From the NCBI GenBank assembly GCA_003576845.1, contig QEVJ01000012.1, forward strand, positions 1-63,320: DNA of 63,320 bases, given 5' to 3'. The notes under the pieces were generated by a model. That model worked only from the letters and a program-made list of their open reading frames with translations. It searched no databases and was not told the origin of the DNA. The position numbers and the translations under genes are program-made. Numbering within the stretch: position 1 is the stretch's first letter; each line of letters starts with the position of its first letter. Below, one piece after another: positions 38,809 to 42,410 of this stretch. Origin of the DNA: Planctomycetota bacterium. Lineage in GTDB: Bacteria > Planctomycetota > Planctomycetia > Pirellulales > PLA5.

Positions 38809-39041
38809 CGGACCAAGTAGTGTGCCCTGCGAGTACCGACGATGGTCACACCACGGTGCGCCGACTCGGCGTGCCAGCGTGCGTGTGCTGCGGCTACTGG
38901 TTTCGCCGCCGACGATTGTGTCCATGAATCGAGGTCTATCGGGGCAATCGCAGCAACGCTACGAGACTAGATCGCGCCATGCGACATACCATCTACGCAC
39001 CAACGCGATCACGGTTGGCGATCCCAACAGAAGGTTTCGCC

Positions 39042-39509
39042 TCACGCACCAAGTGAGAAGATGGGCTGTGTCGTGATGACCATGTTACCGGCGATTCTTA
39101 GAAACGCTTCAAATCCGTCGTCTTCAGGGGATGGTCCAACTAGTTCCGCCAATACGACGGAACCATTGAATCTGCGGTCGACGTAAAACGGTCCATTCGT
39201 CTGCTTCGCGCACTCGTATTGCTGCGAAAGCCAATGGAAGACAAGGGCGTGGGCAGAATCTTGCGGAAGTACGCCCCACCCAGTTCGTCTCCCAAGCCAA
39301 GAATATAAATCCGGCCAGTTTCGTATTAGCTTTGCTCCACGATCAAGCTTGTAAAGCGATTCTTGCACGCCTGGTTCCATGGCAAGCCCGGCTACGCGAA
39401 CCTCAAGGTTCTCCTGCGCGTCGCCATGCCATTTCGTATATAAACCAAACGTGGCGGAATTCGCGTTGACATCGCCCAGGTAAACAAGATAGCAGTTACT
39501 TATGTCCAC
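39042..39509 (-). CDS. Small protein of unknown function in an AT-richer patch
   Basis: A 155-residue protein. The GTG at 39509 was chosen over an in-frame start at 39608 because GGAG lies seven bases upstream. It begins VDISNCYLVYLGDVNANSA and contains EVRVAGLAMEPGVQESLYKL and AHALVFHWLSQQYECAKQ. There is no signal peptide and no membrane helix, and no motif I can name. Base composition is visibly lower in GC than in the neighbours, as for the next four genes. It is downstream of the secreted coiled-coil gene on the same strand. Small soluble proteins in such patches can be immunity or antitoxin proteins, but nothing in the sequence shows that. Confidence 0.55.
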   Translation of the reverse strand: MDISNCYLVYLGDVNANSATFGLYTKWHGDAQENLEVRVAGLAMEPGVQESLYKLDRGAKLIRNWPDLYSWLGRRTGWGVLPQDSAHALVFHWLSQQYECAKQTNGPFYVDRRFNGSVVLAELVGPSPEDDGFEAFLRIAGNMVITTQPIFSLGA

Positions 39510-39601
39510 GGCATCGGCTCCTGTCTTCGTTTGGCAGGTAGGCTTCAGCGCACGGCAAGCAATATAATTAGCGGATCGCTTGGACCACGAGCGTTCGCGT
39601 C

Positions 39602-40105
39602 TCACCACGTGCGCGGTCGTTTACGGATTTGGTTCATGTTCTCCTGGAATTGGCGATTCCGTAGCTCCTGAAACTGGCGCTCGCGTTGCTGGAGTTGCTC
39701 TCGATGATGTCTCTCGCGCTGCTTCAATTCGGCGCGATGGCGGCGGTCTGCTTGCTTCTGTTTCTCTTCCTCGTGCCGACGAGGAGCATCGACGGCGACC
39801 GATTCGGTTCGTTGAAGGACTACATTCATGCGCTTCTTTACGTCGTCTGCGCGATTCCAGTTGCCGTCCGCAATGTGCTTTCTATAGTCGCGCAGGAGCC
39901 ATTGCAGGGTCTTGACGTCGCTTCGTTCCCGTTCGTTGGCAACGGCACTCGAACTTCTGCCGACTATGCCCTCAACGAAGTTCTGGAACTCTTGATGCTC
40001 CCTACGGCGTTCGCGGTCGGGGTCAGGCCGGTCTCGCTGTCCATTGCTCTCAGCGCATGCGAGCAACAAAGCGAACATTAAGAAGAGCTTCTTTTTCATT
40101 GACAT
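39602..40105 (-). CDS. Secreted coiled-coil protein, possible lipoprotein
   Basis: A 167-residue protein. The start is ATG 40105 (or ATG 40099), opening MSMKKKLFLMFALLLACAES, which is a signal peptide; LLAC could be a lipobox with Cys at residue 17. The mature part is very rich in Arg, Glu and Gln (DRERRREHQEFQNF; LKQRERHHREQLQQRERQF) and should be a long helix or coiled coil. No enzymatic motif is seen. It lies 92 bases upstream of the unknown gene at 39042-39509 and is transcribed away from the YwgA-like operon, so the 144-base region 40106-40249 should hold both promoters. Confidence 0.65.
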   Translation of the reverse strand: MSMKKKLFLMFALLLACAESNGQRDRPDPDRERRREHQEFQNFVEGIVGRSSSAVANERERSDVKTLQWLLRDYRKHIADGNWNRADDVKKRMNVVLQRTESVAVDAPRRHEEEKQKQADRRHRAELKQRERHHREQLQQRERQFQELRNRQFQENMNQIRKRPRTW

Positions 40106-40249
40106 GATTCCGAATGGGAGCAGAAGATCAACTTCGCGGGCACCCAAACCCTACTTCGTTTCTACCCAATGGGCAAACGAGAGGTTGCGGCTTCACCAAA
40201 CGTATGGGCGCAACATTCTATGCGCATTGGAGTTAGGGGACTTCGTAAA

Positions 40250-40402
40250 ATGAGCGACCCGATGCGAATTACGCTCGATCCGATCGTAATGGGCGACACG
40301 GTCTACAAACTCTATAATCCCGATGCGGAGCATGAGTTGACTGAAATTTGCAGCGAGTCCTCGCACCTGAACTACAAAAAGTTGAGCCCTAGGACAGCAT
40401 GA
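40250..40402 (+). CDS. 50-residue micro-ORF, possibly an HD-hydrolase remnant
   Basis: The ATG at 40250 follows AGGGGA by about ten bases, so it may be translated. The 50-residue product includes MRITLDPIVMGDTVYKLYNP and ends YKKLSPRTA. Its stop overlaps the ATG of a second micro-ORF (ATGA at 40399-40402). Two readings are open. It may be a real small protein. Or, since the YwgA-like gene comes next, and ywfO (an HD phosphohydrolase) sits beside ywgA in Bacillus (recollection), it may be the eroded C-terminal part of an HD gene broken by a frameshift. Confidence 0.4.
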   Translation: MSDPMRITLDPIVMGDTVYKLYNPDAEHELTEICSESSHLNYKKLSPRTA

Positions 40403-40503
40403 CGCAATTGGCGAAGAAGAACACGTTGGTTCGCCATTATCTTCCTGCCACGGTGCGCGATAAAATGTTCCCCGAGGCCGTGCCGTTACTCCACAAGGAT
40501 TGA
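40399..40503 (+). CDS. 34-residue micro-ORF coupled to its neighbours
   Basis: It is too short for routine gene calling. It starts with ATG at 40399 inside the stop of the preceding ORF and ends with TGA at 40501-40503, three bases before the ATG of the YwgA-like gene. The product reads MTQLAKKNTLVRHYLPATVR and ends EAVPLLHKD. With its neighbours it forms a three-ORF chain with no gaps. It could be a small component of that module or the second half of a frameshifted gene. Confidence 0.35.
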   Translation: MTQLAKKNTLVRHYLPATVRDKMFPEAVPLLHKD

Positions 40504-40506
40504 GCC

Positions 40507-41007
40507 ATGAGCATCGAGAATTATCGCTGGCTGGCGGCACTAATCGCGGCCCATCCCGATTGCGAAGTCTTCGGAAGGACGCGCCTGCAGAAAGAAGTAA
40601 AGCTATTGCAGCGGATCGGATTCCCGACGCATTACGACTACATGATTCACTTCTACGGTCCTTACAGCGAATCGCTGCATAGCGACATCGGCTTGCTCGA
40701 AGCATTTGGTTTTATCGTACAGACGGCCGAGCCAACCAAGGAAGGCAATCCTTGCTACAAGCTGAGCGCTCAGGAACGACCCGATTTGCCGAGCGTGGCG
40801 GAGTATCGCGGCGCGATTGCGCGGCTTCATGGAGAGCCTACCGTCGTTCTGGAATTGGCGGCTACCTACGACGCATTCCGCGACATGGGTTCCGACCACG
40901 CCGAGGCAATCGAGCGGTTGCGTAGAAAAAAAGGCGCGAAATGTGACGAAGGAAACCAAGAAAGGGCACTCGAACTGCTCGAGTCGTTGGGGTTGCCCGT
41001 CGCATGA
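40507..41007 (+). CDS. YwgA-like winged-helix protein
   Basis: A 166-residue cytosolic protein. The ATG at 40507 lies three bases after the previous stop. The N-terminal part has CEVFGRTRLQKEVKLLQRIG, HFYGPYSESLHSDI and LLEAFGFIV, a winged-helix pattern shared with Bacillus YwgA and distantly with DUF4065/Panacea proteins, some of which are antitoxins (family knowledge; not searched). The C-terminal part is helical and charged (AIERLRRKKGAKCDEGNQE). No catalytic motif is seen. It is the best-preserved gene of the accessory patch. It may be an antitoxin-like or regulatory protein, or accompany the HD hydrolase remnant. Confidence 0.65.
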   Translation: MSIENYRWLAALIAAHPDCEVFGRTRLQKEVKLLQRIGFPTHYDYMIHFYGPYSESLHSDIGLLEAFGFIVQTAEPTKEGNPCYKLSAQERPDLPSVAEYRGAIARLHGEPTVVLELAATYDAFRDMGSDHAEAIERLRRKKGAKCDEGNQERALELLESLGLPVA

Positions 41008-41033
41008 CGCTCGCGGCGCCGGCGGCAATGCGT

Positions 41034-42410
41034 CTACGCCGTCCGATCCAGCGCCGTCACCTGGTTCAGCTTGTTATACAGCGTCTTCAAGCTGATTCCC
41101 AACTCTTCCGCCGCGCGCGTCTTATTGTTCTCGTTCCGTTCCAGCGATTGCTGAATCGCCTGGAGTTCCAGTTCGGCCAGCGTCCTCGGGCCGAACGTAA
41201 CGAGCGGTTCGCGCAGCCGGCGCTGGCGGAAGTTCGCCGGCAGATGGTCGGCTTGAATCGGCAGTTCGTCGCACAGAATCGTGGCGTGCTCGACCACGTT
41301 CGCCAGCTCGCGGACGTTGCCCGGCCAGGCGTGCGACTTGAGAAGCTCGAGCGCTTCGTCGGTGAACGCGCCTGCCCCGCCGCGCAGCACCGGGCGAAAG
41401 CGGGCGAGCAAGTGATTGGCGAGCGCGGGAATATCGTCGATCCGCTCGCGCAACGGCGGCAGGTGAATCTCGAACGCATTGACGCGGAACATCAAGTCTT
41501 CGCGAAAGTCACCGGTGTGGACCATTTCTTCGAGATTGCGGTGCGTGGCGCACACGACGCGGACGTCGATCGTCTTCGCCTCGTTGTCGCCGACGCGGCG
41601 AATCTCGCCGCTCTCCATCACGCGGAGCAGCTTCGCCTGCATCGCCTTGGGAAGCTCGCCGATTTCATCCAGAAACAGCGTCCCGCCATGGGCGACCTCG
41701 AACAGCCCAACGCGATGCTCTTCCGCGCCCGTGAAGCTTCCTTTGCGATGGCCGAACAGCTCGCTCTCGATGAGCGTTTCGGGAAGCGCGCCGCAGTTTA
41801 CGGCGACGAAAGGCATGTCGTGTCGATGGCTTTGCTCGTGCAGCGCGCGAGCGACGAGCTCCTTGCCGGAGCCGGTCTCGCCGAGCACCAGCACCGTCGA
41901 GTTCGTCGGCGCGACCTTGGCGATTAGCTTTTCGACCTTCTGCATCGCCGGGCTTTCGCCGACCATGTTGGCCGGACCTTCGACGTGTTCGAGCCGCCGC
42001 TTGAGCGCGCGGTACTTCTGCGTCAACTCGCGCTTGTCGGCGACGCGATTGAGCAGCGCTTCGAGTTCGGCCAGCTTGCACGGCTTGGTCAGATAGTCGA
42101 ACGCCCCTTCGCGCAAGGCGGCAATCGCCGTGTCGAGCGATGCCTTGCCCGTCATGATGATCGCGTCGGTGTCCGGCGAGAGTTCGCGCGCCTTCCGCAG
42201 GACCTCGATGCCGCTGTAGCCCGGCATGTCGAGATCGAGCAGCACGCAGTCGTACGTATTGCGTTCAAGCGCGGCGACTGCCGTCCTGCCGTCGGGACAG
42301 ACCGTCACCTGATGGCCCATCGCGGGCAGTTCCAGGCTCATCAATTCCTGCAATGCCCGTTCGTCGTCGGCAAACAGCAGCTTGAGCGATTTATGCGGCT
42401 TGGTAGCGAT
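41034..42410 (-). CDS. NtrC-type sigma-54-dependent response regulator
   Basis: About 458 residues. Receiver domain: acidic pair in LLFADDE, phospho-acceptor Asp59 in CVLLDLDMPG, the threonine of IIMTG and the lysine of YLTKPC. AAA+ domain: Walker A GETGSGKE, sigma-54 loop GSFTGAEE, Walker B GGTLFLDEIGE, R-finger region. Fis-type HTH at the C-terminus (NNKTRAAEELGISLKTLYNK). The acidic pair lies upstream of the first ATG, GTG or TTG in frame. AAGGAG followed seven bases later by ATC (42410) gives the only start that includes it, so ATC is taken as the start. It overlaps the kinase gene by 20 bases, so the two are translated as a pair. Confidence 0.85.
   Translation of the reverse strand: MATKPHKSLKLLFADDERALQELMSLELPAMGHQVTVCPDGRTAVAALERNTYDCVLLDLDMPGYSGIEVLRKARELSPDTDAIIMTGKASLDTAIAALREGAFDYLTKPCKLAELEALLNRVADKRELTQKYRALKRRLEHVEGPANMVGESPAMQKVEKLIAKVAPTNSTVLVLGETGSGKELVARALHEQSHRHDMPFVAVNCGALPETLIESELFGHRKGSFTGAEEHRVGLFEVAHGGTLFLDEIGELPKAMQAKLLRVMESGEIRRVGDNEAKTIDVRVVCATHRNLEEMVHTGDFREDLMFRVNAFEIHLPPLRERIDDIPALANHLLARFRPVLRGGAGAFTDEALELLKSHAWPGNVRELANVVEHATILCDELPIQADHLPANFRQRRLREPLVTFGPRTLAELELQAIQQSLERNENNKTRAAEELGISLKTLYNKLNQVTALDRTA

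Follow-up and report, generated by a model that had tools for sequence, protein, structure and literature searches.

Two short ORFs ahead of a planctomycete YwgA-like gene read as the decayed tail of an HD-domain dNTPase gene

The two short, overlapping open reading frames (ORFs) that lie directly ahead of a YwgA-like gene in a planctomycete contig are, judging from sequence comparison, almost certainly the decayed tail of an HD-domain dNTPase gene and no new small proteins. The locus lies in a 63,320-nucleotide stretch of DNA, called the window here. It represents the known HD-YwgA pair in degenerate form, with ywgA left as an orphan, and the micro-ORF module that had been proposed for it is not real. 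The first gene of the pair originally encoded a deoxynucleotide triphosphohydrolase with an HD domain, of the EF1143/YwfO type and about 447 residues long. This gene has lost about 84% of its length from the 5′ side, at least one frame-changing deletion has broken the tail that remained, and the two micro-ORFs are the two open pieces of this broken tail.

Table 1. Features of the HD remnant, the YwgA-like gene and the surrounding segment (positions of the window).
Feature	Position	Strand	Description and basis
Variable segment, accD-like to NtrC-like genes	38811..41035		Holds the HD remnant and ywgA; blastn synteny
Micro-ORF 1	40250..40402	+	50 codons; fragment of the decayed HD dNTPase gene
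Main frame lesion	40388..40392	+	5 bases versus 9 in intact relatives; alignment with L003, L004, L005 and L027
Micro-ORF 2	40399..40503	+	Final 34 codons of the HD gene, up to the HD stop codon
AAGGA, probable ywgA ribosome-binding site	40495..40499	+	Within the HD tail; junction sequences
YwgA-like gene, intact	40507..41007	+	166 aa; 60-67% identity over the full length, conserved blocks

Layout of the micro-ORFs and their match to an HD gene

Rechecking the ORF positions confirmed the arrangement described originally, including the coordinates, the ATGA overlap that joins the two micro-ORFs and the gapless lead into the YwgA-like ORF, which starts 3 bases further on. The length of 50 codons given for the first ORF reflects a choice of start, since its ATG lies inside a longer frame that opens with an ATG at 40169 (77 codons). 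The Shine-Dalgarno sequence attributed to this ORF does exist, as AGGGGA at 40235-40240, 9 bases upstream of the ATG, but is weak. Pairs of ATGA-joined ORFs of at least 34 codons each number 27 across both strands of the window, with real genes among them; with such pairs so common, the arrangement by itself is no evidence for genes.

Neither separately nor joined did the micro-ORF products match any Pfam or NCBIfam model, a result that is uninformative because the fragment falls outside the HD and HD_assoc models; the HD test was therefore made against the HD genes of real neighbours and not against these models. A DNA profile was derived from the HD genes that precede close relatives of the window's YwgA-like gene in other planctomycetes. 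The single nhmmer alignment to this profile (40291-40503, E 6.7e-22) spans both micro-ORFs and reaches the final model position, which is the HD stop codon and lies 3 bases ahead of ywgA. With the HD protein as query, tblastn aligned micro-ORF 1 in frame +2 (61% identity, 31 aa) and micro-ORF 2 in frame +1 (57% identity, 35 aa), with a combined E of 6e-12. The homology of micro-ORF 1 is clear from 40291 (DTVYKLYNPDAE...) until about 40389, its final codons ahead of the TGA being outside the ancestral HD frame, and the HD reading frame is open from 40393, i.e. before the start of micro-ORF 2. At the main lesion (Table 1), the DNA alignment places a net 4-base deletion that changes the frame from +2 to +1. 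The HD tails of relatives read ...DTAYKLYNPDAEKPATQIYIES...VELS...ESVKQLAEKYTLVRYYFPDAVR...AVPLLNKV, and the micro-ORF products DTVYKLYNPDAEHELTEICSES...KLS (first) and DSMTQLAKKNTLVRHYLPATVRDKMFPEAVPLLHKD (second). A MAFFT alignment hints at HD homology back to about 40230, with an extra 2-base gap; as the nhmmer match stops at 40291 without extension towards 40230, we do not claim a second frameshift.

The original prediction had offered a choice between a three-part module of new small proteins, the favoured reading, which was to be abandoned if the joined products aligned to an HD protein's C-terminus, and a frameshifted HD hydrolase in two pieces. Both products do align, in order, with the HD C-terminus. 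The module thus falls, and the second reading is right by tblastn and nhmmer, with the addition that the first ~84% of the gene is lost as well.

Decay of the HD tail and retention of ywgA

Upstream of 40291, neither tblastn nor nhmmer detected the other ~1130 bases (the 5′ ~84%) of the HD gene. The missing portion corresponds to about 370 codons and unrelated sequence stands in its place. The metal-binding HD core (H...HD...D) is absent at the locus, the part carrying it being gone, and the window's HD copy is a pseudogene, no working member of the HD-domain dNTPases of EF1143/YwfO type. The rest of the same genome contains only divergent HD paralogues (34-39% identical). No repeats or target-site duplications able to explain the 5′ loss were found.

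The alignment is the main evidence and is supported by a codon-position test, a small one in view of a remnant of about 70 codons whose sites are not independent, in which the window differed at 18 of the 90 first and second HD-tail positions conserved in three other genes (20%), against a baseline of 20/236 (8.5%) with each other gene taken as the odd one out (Fisher p 0.006). In the equal test on YwgA, the window differed at 18/215 positions (8.4%) versus 51/642 (7.9%; p 0.88). Identity between the window and its three closest relatives was 44-55% for the HD tail and 61-66% for YwgA, while among these relatives themselves the HD tail is similar to or above YwgA in identity. Conserved HD-tail positions such as QIYxE are lost in the window, and the tail retains a residual excess of third-position differences, from which the decay may be recent. 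Taken together, these comparisons indicate that the HD tail has lost amino-acid constraint and that the YwgA-like gene has not. The latter retains all conserved blocks of its family, including GRTRLQK and YGPYS; with these, its full-length similarity and its adjacency to the HD remnant, it is placed in the YwgA family, as the orphaned partner of the lost HD gene, still under constraint.

The probable ribosome-binding site of ywgA lies within the HD tail (Table 1), and in 7 relatives a purine-rich sequence of this kind (AAGGAG or similar) occupies an equal position inside the last HD codons. No sigma-70-like promoter was found before ywgA; planctomycete promoters may differ. The tight spacing and the coupling are thus inherited from an intact operon in which the last HD codons contain the ywgA ribosome-binding site. 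We infer that selection on this site, present in the last codons of the HD stump, may be what has preserved the stump. A general trap follows: the last codons of a decaying upstream operon gene can mimic coupled micro-ORFs, because the ribosome-binding site of the downstream gene lies within them.

Three other explanations were weighed. Real small proteins, acting in a three-gene module with an antitoxin-like YwgA-like protein, would account for two open, ATGA-coupled frames with ywgA close behind and for the weak AGGGGA ahead of the first, but they would leave unexplained why both ORFs align in order to one HD tail through its stop codon, why the relatives examined carry an HD gene and not small ORFs, and why the deduced tail is losing conserved residues; such ORF pairs are, moreover, common within the window, and we regard this explanation as extremely improbable. 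Scarcely more credible is an HD gene that is intact in the organism and broken by a sequencing or assembly artefact. The assembly is in 289 contigs and one small indel could be an error, yet a net 4-base deletion is unusual as an error, about 370 codons are replaced by unrelated sequence and amino-acid constraint is reduced across the whole tail. Assembly error is possible for the 4-base deletion alone, and would leave the missing 5′ part unexplained.

Alternatively, frameshifting might allow the truncated tail to be read as a short C-terminal peptide that still functions, for example one that binds YwgA. Third-position changes still outnumber the others in the tail, which is not wholly lost, but no HD domain is left, QIYxE and other conserved positions are gone, and the frame is changed by a net loss of 4 bases; either recent decay or the ywgA ribosome-binding site in the tail is a simpler cause of its retention, so that this explanation too seems very unlikely. 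With the micro-ORFs read as a decayed HD gene tail, a supposed new small-protein system is struck from the list of candidates.

The HD-YwgA pair in other genomes and the segment around it

Searched with the YwgA-like protein, 196 related genomes yielded three close relatives (61-67% identical) from other genera of the same order, plus more distant ones. A gene for an HD-domain protein of ~447 residues precedes ywgA in the two close relatives with complete upstream DNA; in the third, the contig ends near the HD gene and leaves its tail alone visible. The pair is likewise present in L027, a sequence from genome_contigs. In total, HD adjoins YwgA, in either order, in 17/17 distinct planctomycete relatives outside the window locus, one of which has the HD tail only, at a contig end. 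Where the pair is intact, the HD stop and ywgA start codons are no more than a few bases apart. Separate small ORFs ahead of YwgA were seen in none of the relatives examined, the HD gene occupying that place. In Priestia megaterium (NZ_CP140268), HD and YwgA-like genes are annotated together with rsfA and ywhD, in a neighbourhood typical of Bacillaceae, which bears out the original statement that ywfO and ywgA are neighbours in Bacillus. Plasmids yielded two YwgA relatives, one of them adjoining HD, and a phage collection yielded none. The best solved relative of the HD proteins is EF1143 (E 1.4e-69, residues 7-433), and the H, HD and D metal-binding motifs are present in the HD proteins of intact neighbours (P0001, P0002); by this homology the HD enzyme of intact pairs probably hydrolyses dNTPs.

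Two further loci deserve mention. On the minus strand of L004 (G063 C135, 2250-2395), the match to HD in the gene ahead of the YwgA-like gene begins only at residue 347, and the ~85 bases preceding it, where the contig ends, are without HD match; the cause is either an artefact of the contig end or another 5′ truncation that arose independently. The genome of the window itself carries a second, divergent HD-YwgA pair (L019; G000 C17, about 436-1944) with open frames and reversed order, YwgA being first.

In a genome of the same genus (G001), the flanking accD-like and NtrC-like genes are kept, blastn similarity ends at 38810 and 41036, and the segment between was not found at these borders. 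There, a tRNA-Pro(ggg) and an integrase-like gene follow the NtrC-like gene (L037, C582, 2593-3971). From these breaks, the tRNA-Pro and the integrase-like gene, the HD-YwgA pair of the window lies in a variable segment, and gene turnover appears to take place at the NtrC-like gene junction of G001. A tRNA search of the window found none. The variable segment also contains, at 39042-40147, two minus-strand ORFs of 188 and 181 aa with a 7-base overlap and no Pfam matches; the former has no relative among 96 related genomes, and an internal start in the latter yields a lipoprotein-like signal (MKKKLFLMFALLLACAES).

The YwgA family and its likeness to known systems

None of the 18 YwgA family members matched any Pfam model at E 0.01. 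Assignment to the Panacea (DUF4065) antitoxins was rejected, as the DUF4065/SocA_Panacea model was unmatched by all 18. One distant archaeal relative carries a DUF4065 annotation, and the PADLOC candidate defence model PDC-M19A was matched by 17/18 members (alignment A3, best E 8.1e-07). We found no paper on YwgA function.

Among solved structures, the profile of the 18 members matches only one significantly, namely the DarG C-terminal domain (7yk3 chain B, E 1.9e-4), and the PADLOC DarG model was matched by all 18 (best E 3.7e-11). An AlphaFold2 model of the window's YwgA (mean pLDDT 83.6, residues 50-57 being poor) aligned with 7yk3 chain B over 148 of 166 residues (VIA-align, Z 9.4, rmsd 4.7); this was the only chain at Z ≥8, lower rows being mostly winged-helix regulators. 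Foldseek alone gave no significant match of the model in the PDB, the DarG match coming from VIA-align and the sequence profiles. Profile and predicted fold thus agree on a DarG C-terminal-domain-like fold in the YwgA family. Membership of the DarG/DarTG antitoxins was rejected, since YwgA has the C-terminal-domain-like part only (positions 178-224 of the PADLOC DarG model), the macro- (or NADAR) domain part is lacking and the linked gene is HD, not darT. The term antitoxin-like, applied to YwgA originally, hence draws weak to moderate support from the DarG C-terminal domain resemblance and does not extend to DarG/DarTG membership.

DarG uses this domain to block DarT, whose DNA site it occupies (Deep et al. 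2023, as relayed in PMC11481870), and we found no literature linking DarG and dNTPases as one system. The strict gene linkage and the DarG-domain resemblance indicate that YwgA probably binds or regulates its HD partner. More speculatively, by analogy, intact HD-YwgA pairs could form a widespread effector-restrainer module, a SAMHD1-like dNTPase being checked by direct DarG-CTD-like binding, perhaps in phage defence; this is a fair but tentative proposal, which we hold as less likely than not, and regulation through DNA binding would suit a winged-helix protein such as YwgA just as well. An effector lost and a restrainer left fits the hypothesis that YwgA restrains the dNTPase, although a single case proves nothing; if it were true, the window would display the aftermath, with the effector gone and the restrainer remaining. 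As a modest lead, YwgA, an uncharacterised family, becomes a candidate partner of SAMHD1-like dNTPases.

Among the closest known systems is the Bacillaceae pair ywfO-ywgA, seen in Priestia megaterium, in which the HD gene is directly followed by the YwgA-like gene. Its HD protein is 35% identical to the planctomycete P0002 and its YwgA 29% identical to that of the window, where, in contrast, only a frameshifted tail is left of the HD gene. The Enterococcus faecalis protein EF1143 is a SAMHD1-like dNTP triphosphohydrolase (PMC8177086) with structures 2o6i, 3irh and 4lrl in the PDB; the HD proteins of intact neighbours resemble it, with function predicted by homology, whereas the window copy retains no HD domain. 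YwgA is alike to the C-terminal domain of DarG (DarTG) by profile and predicted fold, but has neither the ADP-ribosyl-glycohydrolase domain nor a DarT neighbour, its partner being an HD dNTPase. In Clover, a two-gene pair of the CloA dNTPase and the CloB regulator, the second protein restrains a dNTPase (PMC12265719), which gives the restrainer hypothesis for YwgA a precedent. CloB is a nucleotidyltransferase making p3diT and YwgA a small, winged-helix-like and unrelated protein, so that the likeness is a functional analogy only.
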